Assembly: GCA_019417795.1 (NCBI GenBank)
Contig: DXUR01000016.1
Location: 14,123 to 19,379 of the forward strand
Length of the DNA: 5,257 nt
Origin: Clostridiales bacterium
GTDB lineage: Bacteria > Bacillota_A > Clostridia > Oscillospirales > Oscillospiraceae
Direction of reading: 5' to 3'
This document shows positions 1 to 5,257 of the stretch, one piece after another. Every line of letters begins with the position of its first letter. Position 1 is the stretch's first letter. Made by a program: the position numbers and the translations under genes. The notes below the pieces were generated by a model, which was given only the letters and a program-made list of their open reading frames with translations, did no database searches and was not told the origin of the DNA.

Positions 1-276
1 TGCGCGGTCACCAGCGAGAGCGCACACCGCTATTTTGCACGAAACGACGACGGAAACGGGAAAGCCCGCGGCGCCCTGATCGGCGCCATCACGGCCAAGC
101 TGGAGCGGAAAGACGCCGGCCATCAAATGCGCTGGGATCTCCTGTGGAGCGACCCGGAGGCGCAGAAATTACGCCACCCGGATCATGCGGATTTCTGGCT
201 GTGGGGCCATGCCTTTTTTGAGGCGGACATGGCAGACCTGGAACACGTCGCCGGGCTGATCGGTGCGAGGAGGTGA
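1..276 (+). CDS. 3' end of an unrecognised phage protein (partial)
   Basis: Frame 1 is open from the first base of the window to a TGA at 274-276, giving 91 C-terminal residues; the start lies outside the window. The visible part is soluble, mixed charged and aromatic, with a Trp/His-rich stretch (HPDHADFWLWGHAFFEAD, about residues 59-76) and no membrane segment. I do not recognise a named domain. Its stop codon lies inside the ribosome binding site of the next gene (GGAGGTGA at 269-276), a packing typical of phage late operons, so it probably belongs to the tail/late-structural to lysis transition. That placement is inferred from context. The coding call rests on the long open frame, the tight junction with the next gene and codon use that matches its neighbours. 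Confidence 0.72.
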   Translation, partial: CAVTSESAHRYFARNDDGNGKARGALIGAITAKLERKDAGHQMRWDLLWSDPEAQKLRHPDHADFWLWGHAFFEADMADLEHVAGLIGARR

Positions 277-283
277 CGCTGCC

Positions 284-463
284 ATGGATTATATGAAGCT
301 GGTGGCGGACCTCTGCCAAATCATTGACCGCCAGAACGAAATCACAAAGGCCATGGTGGTGCAGCTGGGCCAGCGCGACGCCCTCCGGTATGAGGAGGAA
401 ATGGCGGCGGTTCGGCGGGACTACGATACCGCCATGGGGGAGGTGGATCCGTGCAAAAACTAA
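284..463 (+). CDS. Small hypothetical phage protein, 59 aa
   Basis: A 59-residue soluble protein, MDYMKLVADLCQIIDRQNEI at its N-terminus, predicted to be mostly alpha-helical and possibly coiled coil because of its heptad-like hydrophobic spacing and many Glu, Arg and Gln residues. It has no membrane segment or known motif. I chose ATG 284 because a strong Shine-Dalgarno (GGAGGTGA, 269-276) sits 7 nt upstream. A GTG at 263 in the same frame would put that Shine-Dalgarno inside the gene. The gene overlaps the next one by 13 nt (451-463), which suggests translational coupling. Small helical proteins of this kind often sit between tail and lysis genes in Firmicutes prophages. The function is unknown. 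Confidence 0.75.
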   Translation: MDYMKLVADLCQIIDRQNEITKAMVVQLGQRDALRYEEEMAAVRRDYDTAMGEVDPCKN

Positions 464-903
464 TTGAAACGCTGTCCACCGTGAGCGTAGGCCAGGCGCT
501 GACTGGCGGCGTCACCGTGGTGGCGCTGGTGTCCGTGTTTATCGAAATTACCCCGGTGAAGATCAACCCGGTTTCCAAGTTTCTGGCCTGGCTGGGGCGG
601 AAGATCAACAGCGAAGTGATCGCCAAGGTGGACAGGCTGGAAACCGAGGTGCAGGCCATGAGGAAAGCGGACGGAGAGCAGGAGGCCATAAACTGCCGTT
701 ACCGGATCCTACGGTTCGGGGACGAAGTAAAACACGGCACCCGGCACAGTCAGGAACATTTTGAGCAGATCCTGGCCGATATTGACGCCTACGAAATCTA
801 TTGCAAGGATCACAAGGATTTCAAGAACAACAAAACCAGAGTGACCACGGAGCGGATCCTGGACGTTTACCGCGTGTGCGTGGAAAAAGACGATTTTCTG
901 TAA
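451..903 (+). CDS. Membrane-anchored phage protein, 150 aa, unknown function
   Basis: Starts at GTG 451 with a GGGAGGTGG ribosome binding site at about 438-445. Residues 16-34 form one hydrophobic membrane segment (ALTGGVTVVALVSVF core), followed by a short amphipathic stretch ITPVKINPVSKFLAWLGRKIN (about 33-53). Residues 56-78 are a charged helix that may be a coiled coil (VIAKVDRLETEVQAM). A soluble C-terminal part follows, with an NCRYRILRFGDEV segment near residue 81 and a Tyr/Cys-containing tail. This order resembles a common unnamed protein family in clostridial prophages that sits just before the holin and endolysin genes; that recognition is from memory. It may be a lysis accessory or a membrane-tethered structural factor, but the sequence does not decide this. 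One TM plus a large cytoplasmic domain makes it unlike a canonical holin. Confidence 0.82.
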   Translation: MQKLIETLSTVSVGQALTGGVTVVALVSVFIEITPVKINPVSKFLAWLGRKINSEVIAKVDRLETEVQAMRKADGEQEAINCRYRILRFGDEVKHGTRHSQEHFEQILADIDAYEIYCKDHKDFKNNKTRVTTERILDVYRVCVEKDDFL

Positions 904-915
904 TGGAGGCAACCC

Positions 916-1329
916 GTGAAAATATTCATTGTGGCCGCGGCGGCGTGGGCTGCCGGTGCCCTCCTGGGTTATTTCGTGGCCCGGCTGGCGTATAAGCACC
1001 TGCGGAAGCGTCTGCGGACGCTGCGGCAGGAACGGAAGCCGCCTAAAAAGAAAATGGGCACCATGGACAGGATCCTGGTTCTGGAAGCGGTTTTCCTGGT
1101 GGCGTACACGGTGGCCGATCTGGTGGTTTTCTGGCACACCGGATCAGAGCCTGCAACCCTGACCGGCTGCGTGTTCGGCGTGTGCGGCCTGGAAAACGGC
1201 GTCATGGGCTGGATCAAGACGAACAAGGACAAGGCGGCGGAGGCCGTCGGAACGAGCGGGAGCGGCACCCAGCCGCCCCCGGAGGAACCGCCCGCGGGCA
1301 CCGGCGAACCACCGGACGCGGGCCTGTGA
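916..1329 (+). CDS. Multi-pass membrane protein of the lysis cluster, 137 aa (possible holin-like)
   Basis: Starts at GTG 916 with a GGAGG at 905-909. Residues 3-23 form a first membrane helix. A strongly basic loop follows (about 27-46, rich in Lys and Arg), then a second helix (about 53-74) and a less hydrophobic third segment (about 80-100, containing TGCVFGVCGLENGVMGW). The C-terminal tail (about 115-137) is a Pro/Glu/Gly-rich, low-complexity segment. Small size, two or three membrane passes, a charged loop and a position directly before the endolysin fit a holin or holin partner, but I see no family-specific signature. The stop overlaps the endolysin ribosome binding site (GAGGAGGT, 1328-1335). 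The 136-aa protein at 2417 has a similar acidic Pro-rich tail and is the better primary holin candidate. Confidence 0.8.
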   Translation: MKIFIVAAAAWAAGALLGYFVARLAYKHLRKRLRTLRQERKPPKKKMGTMDRILVLEAVFLVAYTVADLVVFWHTGSEPATLTGCVFGVCGLENGVMGWIKTNKDKAAEAVGTSGSGTQPPPEEPPAGTGEPPDAGL

Positions 1330-1344
1330 GGAGGTATAAACAAT

Positions 1345-2217
1345 ATGACCGGAAACGAACTGCGCCAAAAGGTTGCGGACATTATCAACGCATGGAACGG
1401 AGCAACCAGAGGAAGCGCCAAGCACCTGGAGATCCTGAACATCTACAACAACCACAAGCCCCTGGCCAGAGGCTACCGCGTACAGGTGGGTGACGCCCAT
1501 TGTGCCACCACGACCTCCGCGGCGTACATCAAGGCCGGGATCGCGGAGTACACCGGGACGGAGTGCGGCGTGGGAAAGTACGTCGAGATCGCCAAGAAAA
1601 AAGGGATCTGGACGGAGAACGACGCATACACCCCCAAGGTGGGCGACGCCTGCGTGTACGACTGGCAGGACGGGGCCAACTACGCCACCACCGACAGCAC
1701 CGGCGCACCGGATCACATTGGCATTGTCACCAAGGTGGGCGGCGGCACCTTTGTGGTCACAGAGGGAAACATGAACGGCGGCAAGGTGGGCAAGCGCACC
1801 ATGAAAGTGAACGGGCGGTATATCCGCGGTTTCATTACCCCGGACTTTGACATGATCGCCCGGAAACTGGGCGGTACGTCCGGCGGGACGGCGGACAAGC
1901 CAACGAAACCGACGACCCAGGCGGCGGGTACATACACCGTTGCGGCCGGGGACACCCTTTCCCGTATCGCCGCGAAGTACGGCACCACCGTGGCCAAACT
2001 GGTGGAGATCAACGGCATTAAAAACCCGAACCTGATCCGTGTGGGCCAGGTCCTCCGCCTGCCCGGCGGAGCCGTCAAGTACACCGTTGTGGCCGGGGAC
2101 ACCCTTTCCCGTATCGCCGCGAAGTACGGCACCACCGTGGCCAAGCTGGCAGCAGACAACGGGATCAAAAATCCGAACCTGATCCATGTGGGCCAGGTTA
2201 TCACCATCAACAAATAA
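1345..2217 (+). CDS. Endolysin: CHAP domain plus two LysM repeats, 290 aa
   Basis: A modular peptidoglycan hydrolase that cleaves the host wall at the end of the lytic cycle. The N-terminal ~170 residues match a CHAP (cysteine, histidine-dependent amidohydrolase/peptidase) fold. The likely catalytic Cys53 lies in [10 protein letters not shown], His124 in [10 protein letters not shown], and a third polar residue in the Glu140/Asn142 region of [10 protein letters not shown] Gly/Thr/Pro-rich linker (about 176-195) leads to two LysM cell-wall-binding repeats at about 196-239 and 245-288, each beginning [22 protein letters not shown]. No signal peptide is present, so export should need a holin, consistent with the membrane proteins on both sides. 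ATG 1345 follows a strong GAGGAGGT (1328-1335). The two LysM repeats are nearly identical at the DNA level. CHAP enzymes may be amidases or endopeptidases; the bond cleaved cannot be told from this sequence. Confidence 0.95.
1933..2144 (+). repeat. Near-identical DNA repeat inside the two LysM modules
   Basis: Two direct copies lie 147 nt (49 codons) apart. Positions 1944-1997 and 2091-2144 are identical over 54 nt. Extending left to 1933/2080 adds ten more matching bases and one mismatch (1943 C versus 2090 T). The rest of each LysM repeat matches at protein level but has diverged at synonymous and non-synonymous sites. This points to recent duplication or gene conversion of the N-terminal half of the LysM unit. 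Confidence 0.93.
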
Positions 2218-2236
2218 TTTTGCCGGAGGTGCTGGA

Positions 2237-2407
2237 ATGGTTATTATCAAGGCGCTGGCCTGGGTGCTTTCCCTGGCCGCTGTGGTCACCTGGCTGGTGG
2301 CCCTGGTACGCTGGGACGGTTCGATCCCCTGTGATCGGAGCCAATGCGAAAGCTGCCCATTTCCGCGGTGCCACGAAAATGGCCAGGACAGCACCGGGCA
2401 GGAATGA
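2237..2407 (+). CDS. Small single-pass membrane protein with a four-cysteine cluster, 56 aa
   Basis: Starts at ATG 2237 with GGAGGTG at 2225-2231. Residues 5-25 are a clear hydrophobic helix (ALAWVLSLAAVVTWLVALV). A short hydrophilic tail follows, with a compact Cys cluster, CDRSQCESCPFPRC (Cys32, 37, 40, 45), then His46. The spacing C-x4-C-x2-C-x4-C suggests metal binding or disulfides rather than chance. Sitting between the endolysin and the putative holin, it could be a lysis accessory, antiholin-like protein or redox-sensitive membrane factor; none of these is shown by sequence. An in-frame ATG at 2186 would give 73 aa, but it overlaps the endolysin end and lacks a ribosome binding site, so I prefer 2237. 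The stop (2405-2407) abuts the next gene's ribosome binding site. Confidence 0.8.
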   Translation: MVIIKALAWVLSLAAVVTWLVALVRWDGSIPCDRSQCESCPFPRCHENGQDSTGQE

Positions 2408-2416
2408 GAGGTAAAA

Positions 2417-2827
2417 ATGGAACAGACTATTATCCGCCTGGCCATTGGCCTGGTTCTTCTGGTGGCTGTCAACGTCGTGCTGGGCAGCCTGAACGCCCTT
2501 TTTGACGGGACTTTCGACCGTATCAAATGCCGGAACGGCGTCATTAAGGGGATCATTATTGCCGCCTGTTTCGTCGCTTTCTATGTAGCGGGACGCCTGA
2601 ACCCCGATATTGTGGCAATCGACATTGACGGCGAAACGGTCAACGTGGCAACAGCCGCCAACCTGGCCATGGTGACGGCCTATGTGCTGTATGCGAAAGA
2701 CGTTTTTTCCAAGCTGTCCAAGCTGGTTTTGAGCAAAACGAGCGGGACGCCGGAGCAGACCGGCGGAACCACGCCGCCCGCATTGGAGGAACCGGCGGAC
2801 GCGGCGGAGGCCACCGCAGCAGAATAA
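2417..2827 (+). CDS. Putative phage holin, 136 aa, three membrane segments
   Basis: Starts at ATG 2417 behind GAGAGGT (2406-2412). Three hydrophobic segments are visible: about 5-27 (IIRLAIGLVLLVAVNVVLGSL), 42-60 (VIKGIIIAACFVAFYVAG) and 76-95 (NVATAANLAMVTAYVLYAKD). They are separated by a charged loop (FDGTFDRIKCRNG) and an acidic loop (NPDIVAIDIDGE). A low-complexity acidic Pro/Ala/Glu tail follows (about 109-136). Size, topology and position downstream of the endolysin fit a phage holin, which forms membrane lesions that let the signal-less endolysin reach the wall. The assignment is by topology and context rather than a diagnostic motif. It is the last gene of the rightward cluster, ending 6 nt before the terminator hairpin region. 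Confidence 0.75.
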   Translation: MEQTIIRLAIGLVLLVAVNVVLGSLNALFDGTFDRIKCRNGVIKGIIIAACFVAFYVAGRLNPDIVAIDIDGETVNVATAANLAMVTAYVLYAKDVFSKLSKLVLSKTSGTPEQTGGTTPPALEEPADAAEATAAE

Positions 2828-2830
2828 AAA

Positions 2831-2865
2831 AGGAACCCCGGCGCCGCCCTGGCGTCGGGGTTCTT
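2831..2865. terminator. Bidirectional intrinsic terminator between convergent operons
   Basis: The stem is 2833-2845 paired with 2851-2863 (13 bp, one G-T wobble) around a 5-nt loop, and can be extended by a wobble and an A-T pair. On the plus strand it is followed by a weak TTCTTCT tract. On the minus strand it is followed by a run of six U (complement of AAAAAA at 2826-2831), making it a better terminator for leftward transcription. It ends both the lysis cluster and the minus-strand small-gene operon. Confidence 0.88.
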
Positions 2866-2872
2866 CTGCGGG

Positions 2873-3019
2873 TCACCTGCTGGCAGGCATGGCCCGCATG
2901 ACTGTTTTTCTGCTGTATTCATCGGTGAGGACTAACACCACACCGCGCCGCCCGTCAGCCAGCGGGACCGTGACCGCCTCCAGCGTAACCGCCGGGGAAA
3001 CTTTCGCTTGCTTTTCCAT
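2873..3019 (-). CDS. Small hypothetical protein, 48 aa (third gene of minus-strand operon)
   Basis: Encodes a 48-residue soluble protein beginning MEKQAKVSPAVTLEAVTVPL, followed by a basic turn (ADGRRG), a hydrophobic beta-like strand (VVLVLTDEY) and a basic C-terminus. The start at 3019 has GGGAGG (3033-3028) 8 nt upstream, an ideal distance. An ATG two codons earlier (3025) is only 2 nt from it, so 3019 is preferred. The stop at 2875-2873 lies just before the shared terminator, as expected for the last gene of an operon. No domain is recognised; alternating hydrophobic residues suggest a small beta-rich fold. Evidence for coding is the ribosome binding site, the position between coupled gene and terminator, and an open frame that fills the otherwise empty interval. 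Homology is untested. Confidence 0.62.
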   Translation of the reverse strand: MEKQAKVSPAVTLEAVTVPLADGRRGVVLVLTDEYSRKTVMRAMPASR

Positions 3020-3021
3020 TC

Positions 3022-3120
3022 TCATTTCCTCCCGTTGAATAGTTTACGAAGCAGCCGGATCCCGTAGCGAACCGGGACATAAACCGCCACGAATATGGCC
3101 ACAAAAAGCAGGTATTTCAT
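3022..3120 (-). CDS. Small membrane peptide, 32 aa (second gene of minus-strand operon)
   Basis: Encodes a 32-residue peptide, MKYLLFVAIFVAVYVPVRYG and then a basic tail (IRLLRKLFNGRK). Residues 3-16 are hydrophobic and the C-terminal half is strongly cationic, so it should be a membrane-inserted or membrane-associated peptide. AGGAGGG at 3133-3127 lies about 7 nt before ATG 3120. Its last three sense codons (GGG AGG AAA) form the ribosome binding site of the 48-aa gene, and its TGA (3024-3022) lies 2 nt before that gene's start, so the two are probably translationally coupled. No named family is recognised. Small size and topology are compatible with a toxin-like or antiholin-like peptide. 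The coding call rests on the strong ribosome binding site and the coupling. Confidence 0.66.
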   Translation of the reverse strand: MKYLLFVAIFVAVYVPVRYGIRLLRKLFNGRK

Positions 3121-3134
3121 GCGCTGCCCTCCTA

Positions 3135-3163
3135 TTGACATTTTAGCGGGTTTCGTTTATATT
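3135..3163 (+). promoter_or_regulatory. Near-consensus sigma-A promoter for predicted antisense RNA
   Basis: TTGACA (3135-3140) is a perfect -35. A 17-nt spacer leads to TATATT (3158-3163), one base from the consensus -10. The start site should be near 3170. No plus-strand reading frame with a ribosome binding site follows before the terminator at 3295-3324, so the product is probably non-coding. Confidence 0.72.
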
Positions 3164-3192
3164 GAGGGTGCGGGGGTTGCCCCCCGCCCCTC
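3164..3192. other. Strong hairpin, 5' end of antisense RNA / intercistronic in the sense mRNA
   Basis: A 12-bp stem with one unpaired base. On the minus strand the loop is GCAA, a GNRA tetraloop, and the hairpin lies between the 44-aa and 32-aa genes. On the plus strand it reads GCGGGGG-TTGC-CCCCC(C)GC from about 3170, exactly where the antisense RNA should start. It would form a protective 5' stem. There is no U-tract on either side, so it is probably a stability or processing element rather than a terminator. Confidence 0.7.
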
Positions 3193-3325
3193 TGTCTGTT
3201 ACCAGCCGATCCATTTGAGGATTGCCGCTGTAATCAGACCGGAGATTGTGCCCGCCAGGATTGTGTCCGCCAAGACCTGCAACCTGTTGGGCTGCGCCGT
3301 CGGCTTATGCCGTCGGCGTTTTTTC
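3170..3325 (+). ncRNA. Predicted antisense RNA (~155 nt) to the 44-aa gene
   Basis: Runs from the inferred start near 3170 (7 nt after TATATT) to the T-run of an intrinsic terminator at 3319-3324. It opens with a GC-rich hairpin and closes with the terminator hairpin. Its body is complementary to the 44-aa gene from beyond its stop codon up to about codon 3. If transcribed it could block translation of, or trigger RNase III cleavage of, the sense mRNA, as known for type I antitoxin RNAs. No plus-strand frame with a Shine-Dalgarno exists inside it. Ends are predicted from motifs only. Confidence 0.6.
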
Positions 3326-3333
3326 TTGCTCAT
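3199..3333 (-). CDS. Basic/hydrophobic small peptide, 44 aa; candidate type I toxin-like or membrane effector
   Basis: Encodes 44 residues. A very basic N-terminus (MSKKKRRRHKPTAQPNR) is followed by a hydrophobic helix from about residue 19 to the end (VLADTILAGTISGLITAAIL, then KWIGW). ATG 3333 is preceded by a purine-rich GGAAAGGGGTGG (about 3350-3339); the spacing to the GGGGTGG part is 5 nt. A promoter with perfect TATAAT lies about 33-60 nt upstream. A plus-strand promoter and terminator bracket the gene, predicting an antisense RNA across almost the entire frame. Short, single-helix, lysine-rich peptides opposed by antisense RNAs are the hallmark of type I toxin-antitoxin systems in Firmicutes. 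Here that is an inference; I do not recognise the peptide as a named toxin family. It could also be a superinfection-exclusion or regulatory membrane peptide. Confidence 0.7.
   Translation of the reverse strand: MSKKKRRRHKPTAQPNRLQVLADTILAGTISGLITAAILKWIGW
3295..3324 (+). terminator. Intrinsic terminator of the antisense RNA, inside the 44-aa coding region
   Basis: Stem CGCCG-T-CGGC (3295-3304) pairs with GCCG-T-CGGCG (3309-3318) with one internal T-T mismatch and a TTAT loop, followed by six T (3319-3324). On the minus strand the same bases encode the Lys/Arg-rich start of the 44-aa peptide: the T-run reads as lysine codons and the stem as RRRHKPTA codons. Confidence 0.8.
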
Positions 3334-3365
3334 TTTAACCACCCCTTTCCTCTTGAACTGTCTAT

Positions 3366-3394
3366 ATTATAATCTAACGTGAGATAAAAAGCAA
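3366..3394 (-). promoter_or_regulatory. Promoter of the minus-strand small-gene operon
   Basis: On the minus strand, TTGCTT (3394-3389) is a moderate -35. A 17-nt spacer leads to a perfect TATAAT (3371-3366). The start site should be near 3359, giving a leader of about 26 nt with the ribosome binding site of the 44-aa gene. The 14-bp dyad at 3372-3385 fills most of the spacer, so a bound repressor would block RNA polymerase. Confidence 0.65.
3372..3385. promoter_or_regulatory. Operator-like dyad O1
   Basis: ATCTAACGTGAGAT, an imperfect palindrome (6 of 7 symmetric pairs), placed between the -35 and -10 of the leftward promoter. It is identical to O2, 39 nt away. It is the likely binding site for the ribbon-helix-helix protein encoded at 3490. 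Confidence 0.75.
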
Positions 3395-3410
3395 TCCGCA
3401 ATATGCACAA

Positions 3411-3424
3411 ATCTAACGTGAGAT
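3411..3424. promoter_or_regulatory. Operator-like dyad O2
   Basis: ATCTAACGTGAGAT, an exact second copy of O1 in the same orientation. It lies just upstream of a plus-strand TATAAT (3430-3435), where it would overlap the spacer of a rightward promoter. Confidence 0.75.
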
Positions 3425-3429
3425 ATTTA

Positions 3430-3435
3430 TATAAT
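3430..3435 (+). promoter_or_regulatory. Candidate -10 for the ribbon-helix-helix gene
   Basis: A perfect TATAAT on the plus strand, flanked by O2 and overlapping the start of O3. No convincing -35 lies 16-18 nt upstream. A second TATAAT at 3469-3474 would start transcription inside the ribosome binding site, so this one is preferred. Confidence 0.42.
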
Positions 3436-3447
3436 CTAACAGTAGAT
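3434..3447. promoter_or_regulatory. Operator-like dyad O3 (variant)
   Basis: ATCTAACAGTAGAT shares the outer ATCTA/TAGAT half-sites with O1 and O2 but differs in the centre. Its centre lies 23 nt from that of O2, about two helical turns, which would favour cooperative binding. It overlaps the candidate rightward -10 at 3430-3435. Confidence 0.65.
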
Positions 3448-3489
3448 AAAAACGGGCGGCGGTGGTATTATAATGGCGAGGTGATAAGC

Positions 3490-3696
3490 ATGGGCAGACC
3501 GAAGAAAGAGGGCGGCATGAGCGCCACCGACTACAAGCGAGATTTCAATGAAAAGAACTATGATCGACTTTCCCCGTATGTAAAGAGAGGAAAAAAAGAC
3601 AGATACAAGGAAGCTGCGAAAGCTGCAGGGTACAGTCTTAACGAGTTCATGGAAAAGGCTATGGACAGCCTGGCGGCGGAGATCCTGGGAGAATAA
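3490..3696 (+). CDS. Arc-like ribbon-helix-helix DNA-binding protein, 68 aa
   Basis: Basic N-terminus (MGRPKKEGG), then a beta strand (about 23-34, NYDRLSPYVKRG), helix A (about 35-47, KKDRYKEAAKAAG) and helix B (about 49-65, SLNEFMEKAMDSLAAEI). This is the pattern of Arc/MetJ-type ribbon-helix-helix repressors common in Firmicutes mobile elements, which bind short palindromic operators as dimers, often cooperatively. The three dyads directly upstream are the obvious targets, suggesting autoregulation and control of the divergent small-gene operon. ATG 3490 follows a full GAGGTGAT (3478-3485). The upstream in-frame ATG at 3403 has no ribosome binding site and would run through O2 and O3. Codon use is visibly more AT-rich than the lysis genes. 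An antitoxin-like role is possible, but no protein toxin partner is adjacent in the same operon. Confidence 0.85.
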   Translation: MGRPKKEGGMSATDYKRDFNEKNYDRLSPYVKRGKKDRYKEAAKAAGYSLNEFMEKAMDSLAAEILGE

Positions 3697-3705
3697 AAAG
3701 CATAA

Positions 3706-3732
3706 GCCCCCGACGCACACAGCGCCGGGGGC
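3706..3732 (+). terminator. Hairpin terminator after the ribbon-helix-helix gene
   Basis: GCCCCCG (3706-3712) pairs with CGGGGGC (3726-3732). An A-C mismatch and an inner CGC/GCG stem close on an ACACA loop. Only a short GTTT tract follows on the plus strand, so termination may be partial. The spacing of 10 nt from the stop codon supports the role. Confidence 0.7.
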
Positions 3733-3780
3733 GTTTCGGCGTTTGCCCTCCAGAGTGTTCAATATTTTTCGGTGCTGATT

Positions 3781-3814
3781 ATTAACACGGGTTCGTGGAA
3801 ACCTATGTGTTAAT
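3781..3814. promoter_or_regulatory. Long dyad upstream of the XRE regulator gene
   Basis: ATTAACAC (3781-3788) and GTGTTAAT (3807-3814) form a perfect 8-bp inverted repeat. A nested GGTTC...GAAACC dyad lies between them. A wider pair, TGTTCA (3756-3761) and TGAACA (3829-3834), brackets the same region. The place, in the 163-bp gap before the XRE gene, suits an operator for a dimeric repressor. No clear -35/-10 pair was found here. Confidence 0.5.
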
Positions 3815-3859
3815 ATCAAGAAAACTGCTGAACATTACCACGCGCCTGGAGGGCTGCCC

Positions 3860-4102
3860 ATGAAAGCGTATGATTTCCACGGGAAAAGAAATATATGCGG
3901 TGACCGGATCCGGGAGGCCCGCCTGCGGGCGCGGCTGTCACAGTCTGATCTCTGCCGGCGTCTGCAACTGGCTGGTGTCATTGTGGAGCGGGACGTGATA
4001 AGCAGGATCGAAAACGGCGGCAGGTTTGTGGCTGACTTTGAGGTGGTGGTGATCGCGGACGTTCTGGAGGTTTCCGTGGACTGGCTGCTGGGCAAAGAAT
4101 AG
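3860..4102 (+). CDS. XRE-family helix-turn-helix regulator, 80 aa
   Basis: A compact Cro/CI-type DNA-binding domain with no C-terminal extension. Residues about 15-70 hold the five-helix core: RIREARLRARLSQSDLCRRL (helices 1-2), a slightly long turn (QLAGVIVER), the recognition helix (DVISRIENGGR) and helices ending EVSVDWLLG, a typical XRE ending. Length and sequence style match small regulators common in gut Firmicutes prophages. It may be a lysogeny repressor, a Cro-like switch or a regulator of the downstream transposase. ATG 3860 follows GGAGGG at 3848-3853. It carries its own terminator, so it is probably monocistronic. The dyad at 3781-3814 is a plausible autoregulatory site. The small size lacks the peptidase domain of LexA/CI-like SOS-cleavable repressors. 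Confidence 0.88.
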   Translation: MKAYDFHGKRNICGDRIREARLRARLSQSDLCRRLQLAGVIVERDVISRIENGGRFVADFEVVVIADVLEVSVDWLLGKE

Positions 4103-4146
4103 GACGGCGTGGAGTGCTGTATGCACCGCGCCGTCCATATTTTTTT
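4102..4146 (+). terminator. Intrinsic terminator after the XRE gene
   Basis: GGACGGCG (4102-4109) pairs perfectly with CGCCGTCC (4129-4136). An inner GTGC/GCAC stem lies on the same axis. The hairpin is followed by ATATTTTTTT (4137-4146). It begins within the stop codon of the XRE gene and separates it from the transposase gene. Confidence 0.88.
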
Positions 4147-4164
4147 GAAAGTGAGGGCACGGGC

Positions 4165-5214
4165 ATGAAAGGATATAAGCACCTGACGGAGTTTGACCGG
4201 AACAAGATCGCCAGAATGAGAAAAGAGGGCGCCACCATGCGCGAGATCGGCGCGGCCCTGCACGTCAGCGCCGCCACCGTCTGCCGCGAGATCAAACGCG
4301 GGACATACACCTACATGAACGCGGATTATATCGAAGTGACCGAGTACATACCGGAGCGGTCACAAGCCCGCTACCGGGCCAACATGGCGGCCAAGGGCGG
4401 CCCCCTGAAAATTGGAAGTGATCGCCGGTACGCCGAAACCCTGGAGGCGCTGATTGCTGACGACAATTACAGCCCGGAGGCAGCCCTGCATGAGATTGAG
4501 AACCACCCGGAAAAGTACGGCAGCTTTGAAACGCGGATCTGCCGCCAAACCCTTTATGCCTATATTGACAAGGGAGTTTTTCTCCGCCTGACCAATAAGG
4601 CGCTGCCGTTCAAGGGTTCCCGGCGGAAGAAGAAAACCAAGCACGTCCAGCGGGCGAAACAGCAGCCCAAGGGTGAGAGCATAGAAAAGCGCCCGCCGGA
4701 GATCGACGGGCGCCAGGAGTTCGGCCACTGGGAAATGGATCTGGTGGTTTCCTGCAGGGGCGGGCATAAGTGCCTCCTGGTGCTGACCGAGCGCGTCACC
4801 CGCATGGAGGTGATCCGCCTGATCCGCGATAAATCCGCGGCCAGCGTCGTCCGTGCGCTGGACACCATGGAACGGAAATGGGGCACCCGCTTCCCGCAGG
4901 TATTCCAATCTATTACCATGGACAACGGAAGCGAGTTTGCGGACTATATCGGGATCGAACGGTCCGTATATAAACGCTGCGAGAGCAAGCGCACCCGGAC
5001 ATATTACTGTCACCCATACTGCAGTAGTGAGCGAGGAAGCAACGAAAAACAAAACCAGATGATCCGGCGGAAGTTCCCCAAGGGGACAAACTTTGATAAG
5101 GTTACCCAAAAAGACGTGGAGGCGGTGGAAAGCTGGCTGAACAGATACCCCCGCCAACTGCTGGGCTGGGCCTCTGCCGGGCAGCTGTTTGAGGGCTATT
5201 TGCAGACCGTCTAA
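4165..5214 (+). CDS. IS30-family DDE transposase, 349 aa
   Basis: Catalyses DNA strand transfer for an IS30-type mobile element. An N-terminal HTH_38-like domain (about 6-46, TEFDRNKIARM...REIGAALHVSAATVCREIKRG) recognises element ends. The catalytic RNase H-like core shows Asp192 in EFGHWEMDLVV, Asp253 in SITMDNGSEF and Glu294 in SERGSNEKQNQMIRRKFPKGT. The C-terminal motif YPRQLLGWASAGQLF is typical of the family. Length is within the family range (about 300-380), and no frameshift or stop interrupts it. About 40 residues separate the second Asp and the Glu, longer than the 33 of classical IS30, because of an insert around KRCESKRTRTYY; similar inserts occur in gut Firmicutes relatives (from memory). 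The Trp usual before ERG is Ser here. ATG 4165 has only a weak GTGAGGG upstream. A GTG at 4114 would start inside the preceding terminator. Confidence 0.92.
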   Translation: MKGYKHLTEFDRNKIARMRKEGATMREIGAALHVSAATVCREIKRGTYTYMNADYIEVTEYIPERSQARYRANMAAKGGPLKIGSDRRYAETLEALIADDNYSPEAALHEIENHPEKYGSFETRICRQTLYAYIDKGVFLRLTNKALPFKGSRRKKKTKHVQRAKQQPKGESIEKRPPEIDGRQEFGHWEMDLVVSCRGGHKCLLVLTERVTRMEVIRLIRDKSAASVVRALDTMERKWGTRFPQVFQSITMDNGSEFADYIGIERSVYKRCESKRTRTYYCHPYCSSERGSNEKQNQMIRRKFPKGTNFDKVTQKDVEAVESWLNRYPRQLLGWASAGQLFEGYLQTV

Positions 5215-5257
5215 AAATATTTTTTCGTTTTGTTACACTTTCCTATTGACATTTGCC
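5215..5257. other. Downstream flank of the transposase; candidate element end
   Basis: Contains an AT-rich symmetric run (AAAAATATTTTT around 5213-5224), then TGTTACACTTTCCTATTGAC and ATTTGCC to the window end. It could be the right terminal repeat of an IS30-type element, or the -35 region (TTGACA at 5246-5251) of a gene beyond the window. No reverse-complement partner was found left of the transposase in this window. Confidence 0.35.

Follow-up and report, generated by a model that had tools for sequence, protein, structure and literature searches.

A probable type I toxin-antitoxin-like cargo module of Clostridia phages: two membrane peptides under a putative nested antisense RNA and an exchangeable repressor

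We suggest that the DNA analysed here, a stretch of 5,257 nucleotides from a Clostridiales genome which we call the window, carries a type I toxin-antitoxin-like phage cargo module. Judged from its sequence, the module is most likely wired like the immI region of phage P22, where repressors act together with the sar antisense RNA. Because related phages and genomes keep the design with interchangeable repressors, it probably represents a small toxin-antitoxin-like module of a new kind. In the reading we favour, and which we hold to be likely, it is a compact, regulated cargo unit (moron) carried by temperate phages and by prophages, chiefly those of Oscillospiraceae, and its membrane peptides are kept under two locks, a repressor and an antisense RNA. 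A first-pass annotation had read this place as a new type I pair or, alternatively, as a phage membrane peptide under antisense control; conservation of the antisense signals across relatives lends support to this proposal. Our analysis adds to it the divergent regulator with its palindromes, the second peptide, the parallel to P22 immI and a second family of peptides.

Table 1. Features of the module and its surroundings in the window.
Feature	Positions	Strand	Remarks
CHAP/LysM endolysin	1345-2217		among small membrane and lysis genes
Three small minus-strand genes	2873-3333	-	
Third small gene, 48 aa	2873-3019	-	varies among loci
Peptide 2, 32 aa	3022-3120	-	basic tail after a transmembrane stretch; gene downstream of that of peptide 1
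Antisense promoter TTGACA-17-TATATT	3135-3163	+	score 11/12
5' hairpin of putative antisense RNA	3164-3192	+	in the sense mRNA, a hairpin after the stop codon
Predicted antisense RNA, over all of peptide 1	3170-3325	+	start predicted from the promoter, end from the terminator position
Peptide 1, 44 aa, presumed toxin	3199-3333	-	basic N-terminus and one predicted transmembrane helix
Antisense terminator-like hairpin and six T	3295-3324	+	within the codons of the basic N-terminus of peptide 1
Peptide 1 promoter TTGCTT-17-TATAAT	3366-3394	-	at least 9/12 in 29/31 loci, counted without chance control
Operator-like palindrome 1, ATCTAACGTGAGAT	3372-3385		between -35 and -10 of the peptide promoter; repeat family D1
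Operator-like palindrome 2, ATCTAACGTGAGAT	3411-3424		
Operator-like palindrome 3, ATCTAACAGTAGAT	3434-3447		overlaps the regulator's own promoter-like site, 3443-3471
Divergent 68-aa regulator, ribbon-helix-helix (RHH)-like	3490-3696	+	PHROG 13890, E 1.8e-9, function unknown
HTH regulator gene	3860-4102		
IS30-family transposase	4114-5214		NF033563, E 4e-65

The window is part of a phage. An endolysin gene, grouped with small genes for lysis and membrane proteins, is followed by small minus-strand genes, regulators and a transposase, and the human gut phage contig MT835543 (L001) matches the window over 94% of its length with 97.8% identity. The neighbours of the module differ among loci: of 31 loci, several of them on short contigs, 13 contain the transposase cluster and 16 the HTH cluster. 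Because its cluster recurs in this way, the transposase may be the phage's own integration enzyme. Some further features of the neighbourhood can be mentioned. The endolysin contains two alike LysM repeats (1933-2198, about 91% DNA identity over 120 bases), and the intergenic region between it and the small minus-strand genes holds a hairpin (fold of -29.6 kcal/mol). Just upstream of the HTH regulator and the transposase lies a nested long inverted repeat (3738-3855; fold of 3735-3860, -45.7 kcal/mol), which may serve as operator or recombination site. An exact 14-nt direct repeat, TCCTATTGACATTT, is present at 3130-3143, where it forms the antisense -35 region, and at 5241-5254, where it forms a -35-like site after the transposase. 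Weak matches of the regulators to defence models (ZorA, E 0.00045; RmrA, E 1.3e-6, HTH gene at 3860) were judged uninformative, and the same search gave no match for either peptide.

Peptide 1 is the presumed toxin. The 44-aa frame reported earlier for the minus strand, with a ribosome-binding site and a promoter of its own (TTGCTT-17-TATAAT), is indeed present. Its product is modelled as a single helix over residues 15-42 (mean pLDDT 80) and, as is typical of type I systems, is a small hydrophobic peptide, the best 19-residue hydropathy averaging 1.94 over 28 loci. Sequence search returned 82 relatives (83 candidates) and profile search 324, no Pfam domain being found in any of the best 120 of these 324. 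Their consensus combines a Lys/Arg-rich start with a strongly kept helix, LAADILAGTISGLITAAILKLLxW; pooled pN/pS over the last 22 codons is 0.37 (28 loci). The comparison covers 37 loci, namely 35 fetched DNA loci (18 from viral contigs, 17 from species genomes), MT835543 and the window. Distribution of the peptide is sporadic, since 10 of 400 genomes in the family of genome G002 and 2 of 394 in its order carry it, known carriers counted. A search of solved structures gave no match, and in profile searches neither peptide 1 nor peptide 2 passed the cut-off of any known toxin family. The peptide 1 family is without a name, and none is given to it in the literature matches listed.

An antisense RNA of about 155 nt, nested over the whole peptide 1 gene, is very likely real. 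The first-pass annotation had pointed to a plus-strand promoter, an intrinsic terminator and the lack of a ribosome-bound frame between them. The promoter turned out to be the best of seven promoter-like sites in the window (shuffles average 2.1), the terminator-like hairpin has a stem at 3295-3318 followed by six T at 3319-3324, and the plus strand of 3170-3325 is without a complete frame of at least 30 aa with ATG, GTG or TTG start. Two plus-strand frames touch this interval; one runs from 3246 beyond the terminator, the other begins upstream at 3095. The segment 3170-3327 (158 nt) folds at -79 kcal/mol, with z of -7.1 relative to shuffles. As far as sequence alone can tell, we are thus dealing with an antisense RNA gene which has its own promoter and terminator, is complementary to the presumed toxin mRNA as in type I systems, and is directed against a cargo gene as in P22 immI. 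Rfam covariance models gave no match at E up to 1 anywhere in the window, and no known RNA family could be assigned to it.

Homologues that keep the peptide also keep the antisense signals. Just past the peptide stop codon, a promoter of at least 10/12 (10/12 or 11/12) with a spacer of 17-18 is present in 36 of 36 evaluable loci, several of which are near-copies, L008 ending before the promoter region. The chance of such a score is 1.35% per locus (81 of 6000 Markov-resampled 110-nt regions). Our alignment has 30 rows, 29 of them distinct, after near-copies were dropped (L015-L017, L019 and L021, in some counts also L031). TTGAC is invariant in all 30, the -10 element is TATANT or close to it, and mean identity of the spacer is 0.61. 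The 5' hairpin begins right after the -10 element and retains 10 or more of its 12 pairs in 28 rows, the two others being L018 (9) and L027 (5); seven of its pairs are changed on both sides. In the terminator-like hairpin at least 8 of 10 pairs are formed in 29 rows and 7 in L011, 94.1% of cells are paired, two pairs are changed on both sides, and the 8 bases that follow contain at least five T in every row. For both hairpins together, 93.2% of cells are paired, 9 of 22 pairs are changed on both sides and the covariation score is 0.212 versus 0.129; with slid partners as controls, pairing falls to 45-57%. Four of five hairpin measures were reached by 0 of 500 shuffles and the fifth, further pair types, by 367 of 500, a comparison to be read with the caveat that kinship of sequences alone can outdo shuffles without any structure.

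The tests of codon choice are independent of this caveat (loci L012, L024 and L034, with disrupted frames, were left out). Compared with synonymous recodings, the N-terminal hairpin has z of -1.5 or lower in 27 of 28 loci (mean -2.49), against means of -0.85 for the middle region and 0.05 for the C-terminus. In the terminator stem 244 of 260 pairs are formed, the maximum of 500 synonymous recodings being 182. The sense strand also exceeds its recodings (mean z -2.09; 215 pairs versus a maximum of 145). As far as codon choice reveals, these tests show that the N-terminal hairpin is under selection, on a strand which they leave unspecified. The antisense direction rests on the promoter, because pairing is in excess on both strands, Lys codons dictate the T-run and the protein code explains the wobble. 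An argument from G.U wobble asymmetry in the terminator (34 antisense versus 1 sense cells) was dropped, since synonymous recoding yields the same asymmetry (41.7 versus 3.3). Likewise, the YUNR U-turn loop motif, seen in 20 of 30 and 28 of 30 rows, was not used because it lacked a chance control.

In the extreme, there might be no functional antisense RNA at all: the promoter-like motif would then reflect the region before the ribosome-binding site of the next gene, and the hairpins would serve the sense mRNA. We hold this to be very improbable. It is true that the 5' hairpin gives no support to the antisense direction and suits the sense strand at least equally well (10 sense versus 4 antisense wobble cells), that the terminator hairpin beats recodings on the sense strand too, and that its T-run is fixed by coding. 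None of this would account, however, for TTGAC staying invariant in every row in spite of lying outside the ribosome-binding core, for the -10 element being kept while the spacer varies, or for a promoter of such low chance probability recurring locus after locus. We therefore return to the antisense RNA as one of the two locks.

The other lock would be the divergent regulator. Palindromes 2 and 3 lie between it and the peptide promoter. The two loci without a peptide promoter of at least 9/12, L024 and L034, are also ones in which the peptide frame is broken. Pfam matches of the 68-aa regulator are all below threshold (TacA1, E 0.043; HicB, E 0.1); among eight regulators scanned, only those of MT835543 (HTH_26, PF13443) and L028 (Arc, PF03869) passed the cut-off. 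A small regulator was recognised, partly by eye, beside the peptide in 25 of 32 loci: 16 are RHH-like by pattern and two by eye (L026, L036), six are HTH of one type, and that of L027 is HTH-like. In the remaining seven (L004, L005, L018, L022, L025, L029, L030) no regulator was recognised within about 330 nt of the peptide; L005 and L022 have an RHH-like relative about 1.4 kb away. The palindromes, judged by eye, vary with the type of regulator. The clearest case is the comparison of the window with MT835543, which are 97.3% identical over 1-3375 and 99.2% over 3707-5257. Window positions 3376-3706, with palindromes and regulator, do not align to MT835543 at all, and the RHH-like regulator is replaced by HTH_26. 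By this alignment, the palindromes and the putative repressor are swapped between near-identical phages. Conversely, L020 combines the regulator of the window with another version of the peptide.

Peptide 2 is nearly as widespread as peptide 1. A membrane peptide of its kind (26-35 aa, with basic tail) is present in 29 of 32 loci listed, its form in L018 looking different; it was not found by script in L024 and L034, and L008 ends before its position. Its pooled pN/pS is 0.42 over 27 loci. There are also loci in which the module appears decayed. In three of 37 (L012, L024, L034) the peptide frame is disrupted and the antisense promoter kept, L024 and L034 being also without a good sense promoter. 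A module with a broken peptide frame is also present in Flavonifractor sp. An10. Dulem virus 34 (L002, 9200-9660) possesses the RHH-like regulator and palindromes; both peptides are absent, and a search for the antisense patterns gave none of them. Its annotated CDS 9375-9620 lies on top of the palindromes and seems to be spurious. These cases, few and partly from drafts, would fit a gene that is costly once its lock is gone.

The module can also be approached from the antisense side. When viral contigs were scanned for no more than the antisense promoter plus the beginning of the 5' hairpin, 72 stretches were obtained, of which 14 lie opposite the known peptide by first filter; L103, a diverged relative of peptide 1, raises this number to 15. 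A looser scan, covering at least 180 loci, found at least 330 promoter-like sites and, among the matches listed, at least 17 with a strong hairpin. Fourteen of the 17 listed face a small basic-plus-hydrophobic frame (the frame of L088 being taken from separate inspection, not from the looser-scan analysis), and L079, L087 and L090 do not. Because 12 of 14 contigs had been known through the peptide already, the new evidence from the scans consists of L103 and L214.

L214 (2349-2465) encodes a different peptide, MKQKKKKPKKAVDVATILVTALMDLLVGLILLLVDKLT, which has no BLAST match to peptide 1 of the window. It is surrounded by a divergent RHH-like gene, palindromes, an antisense promoter with hairpin and another small membrane peptide, and its basic codons contain a terminator-like stem. 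Together with its relatives L234-L248, it represents a second family of the pattern KKKKPTK...LLINALIDLIVGTLLILIxKL. L244 (a copy of L243) and L245 and L247 (the same places as L234 and L232) were left out, and L237-L243 include several close relatives. An antisense promoter of at least 9/12 was found in 15 of 15 loci scored, at a chance of 15.8% per locus, and 10/12 is reached in 8 of 15. An RHH-like gene stands beside two of the 15 (L214, L248); the frame of L232 is disrupted, and L233 is without a clear start, and no 5' hairpin was found in it. The family occurs in 3 of 295 genomes and in 4 of 300, two of which were already known. When the profiles of the two families are compared, only the basic starts match, with a probability of 19%. 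The second family would thus have a similar layout, on weaker statistics than the first.

These loci also bear on the idea that the plus-strand RNA is real and acts mainly in trans on some other target, its overlap with the peptide being incidental. A structured and conserved RNA would suit such a role. Yet the RNA lies opposite the peptide in every locus examined (loci mostly found via the peptide), Dulem virus 34 lacks the RNA signals as well as the peptide, and second-family loci show the same overlap with a different sequence, which makes a primarily trans-acting RNA extremely improbable. We keep to an RNA directed against peptide 1.

Comparison with known systems places the module between several of them. 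Mnt and Arc of P22 are RHH proteins, and mnt is divergent; differing from P22, the putative repressor here is either RHH-like or HTH, the cargo consists of two small membrane peptides instead of an antirepressor, and the antisense RNA spans the whole first gene. What is common to both, as far as immI is described, is a phage cargo module among late genes, with small repressors, putative ones in our case, and an antisense RNA, predicted in our case, acting on one cargo gene (PMC2629481). By the same account immI, the "ant moron" of mnt, arc, sar RNA and ant, uses repressors and antisense RNA to control a non-toxin (PMC2629481). This offers a model for a rather unlikely alternative: the antisense RNA is real, and the peptides are non-toxin accessory membrane proteins of the phage, serving superinfection exclusion, lysis timing or envelope modification, whose dose is kept low. 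The module of the window adjoins lysis genes, and that of L010, with the major head protein gene a few kb before it and the tape-measure gene directly after, is placed like a moron. However, since neighbours vary among loci, there is no fixed tie to lysis. Type I toxins provide the best-known cases of a tiny hydrophobic gene wholly covered by an antisense RNA, which also speaks against accessory proteins, as does the weak likeness of the peptides to Ldr and Fst.

This likeness deserves a closer description. With the toxins of Ldr/Rdl and Fst, peptide 1 shares a short transmembrane stretch; unlike them, it has a basic N-terminus and is without a charged tail. Matches to Ldr (PF13940) are below threshold (best E 0.049, 7 of 68 members; hhalign probability 65%), as are those to Fst (PF13955; E 0.095 for L214, one of three second-family proteins scanned). 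When 10 members were scanned singly, two matched Ldr (E 0.35 and 0.76), and the Ldr profile, run on seven genomes holding relatives of the peptide, did not pick it up, none of its matches there exceeding the cut-off. Pairwise shuffles (median 0 of 200 for Ldr) overstate the likeness because Ldr was chosen after topping the Pfam list. Membership in either family was consequently rejected, all scores being below the curated cut-off, and the likeness is suggestive only.

In layout, the nearest counterpart is Ibs/Sib of E. coli, where the antisense RNA extends over a tiny peptide gene in full, coding region and ribosome-binding site included, and can, by covering the whole gene, block translation (PMC4147584). 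Ibs is set beside peptide 1 by description, and Ibs/Sib as described lacks the dedicated repressor and the second peptide found here in phages and genomes of Clostridia. The claim that full nesting is unusual accordingly holds against the Gram-positive examples named with it, pairs of this kind being described as convergent or partly overlapping (PMC6563280, PMC5848175), and does not hold in general, Ibs/Sib being a precedent for full overlap (PMC4147584). The yonT/yoyJ/SR6 system of the B. subtilis prophage SPbeta likewise has one antisense RNA by two consecutive small toxin genes in one operon; as described, the overlap of SR6 is confined to the 3' end of yonT and the 5' end of yoyJ (PMC5848175), while the RNA proposed here spans peptide 1 and has its predicted start upstream of peptide 2. 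A double lock of transcriptional repressor and RNA antitoxin is described for TisB/IstR-1, DinQ/AgrB and SymE/SymR of E. coli (PMC4147584). There the repressor is LexA of the host; here a putative repressor is encoded beside the peptide and can be exchanged. Among the literature matches listed, no single phage module combined complete nesting with a dedicated, swappable repressor and a second peptide, and no title on a type I system in this bacterial group appeared among the matches listed that name the group.

A possible mechanism can be outlined as follows. The minus-strand promoter would drive peptide 1 and, along with it, peptide 2. The divergent RHH-like or HTH repressor would bind the palindromes over -35/-10 of the peptide promoter and over its own promoter. 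Transcription from the antisense promoter, which is perhaps constitutive (we noticed no palindrome there), would start just past the stop codon of peptide 1 and end at its start codon. Pairing of this RNA with the whole coding region and the start site would block translation and expose the mRNA to RNase III. Expression of the peptides would thus require failure of both locks, the presumed trigger being loss or absence of the cognate repressor, for example upon entry into a naive cell or upon prophage loss. Once made, two cationic membrane peptides would most likely depolarise the membrane or halt growth; we infer their toxicity from the type of peptide, the double lock and the weak Ldr/Fst likeness. 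A promoter silenced by a repressor fits poorly with classic post-segregational killing.

Type I systems are hard to find because both of their parts are tiny and unannotated. In the present case, conservation of the antisense gene was sufficient for using it as a query, and searches starting from it uncovered L103, a diverged relative, and the second family of peptides. That near-identical phages have naturally exchanged their putative repressor and palindromes suggests selection on the specificity of the repressor, as in phage immunity, and bears on the purpose of phage-borne type I modules. Tentatively, and with less confidence than we place in the module itself, we propose a general class of Clostridia phage morons. 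Each would carry two membrane peptides of opposite build, one with the basic tail before the helix and one with it behind, under a nested antisense RNA lock and an interchangeable repressor, whose specificity diversifies in an immunity-like manner, and the same control frame would on at least two occasions have taken up unrelated peptides. Such a module would fire only where DNA enters or remains in a cell without the cognate repressor, and may then be a compatibility weapon between mobile elements, not a simple addiction module.
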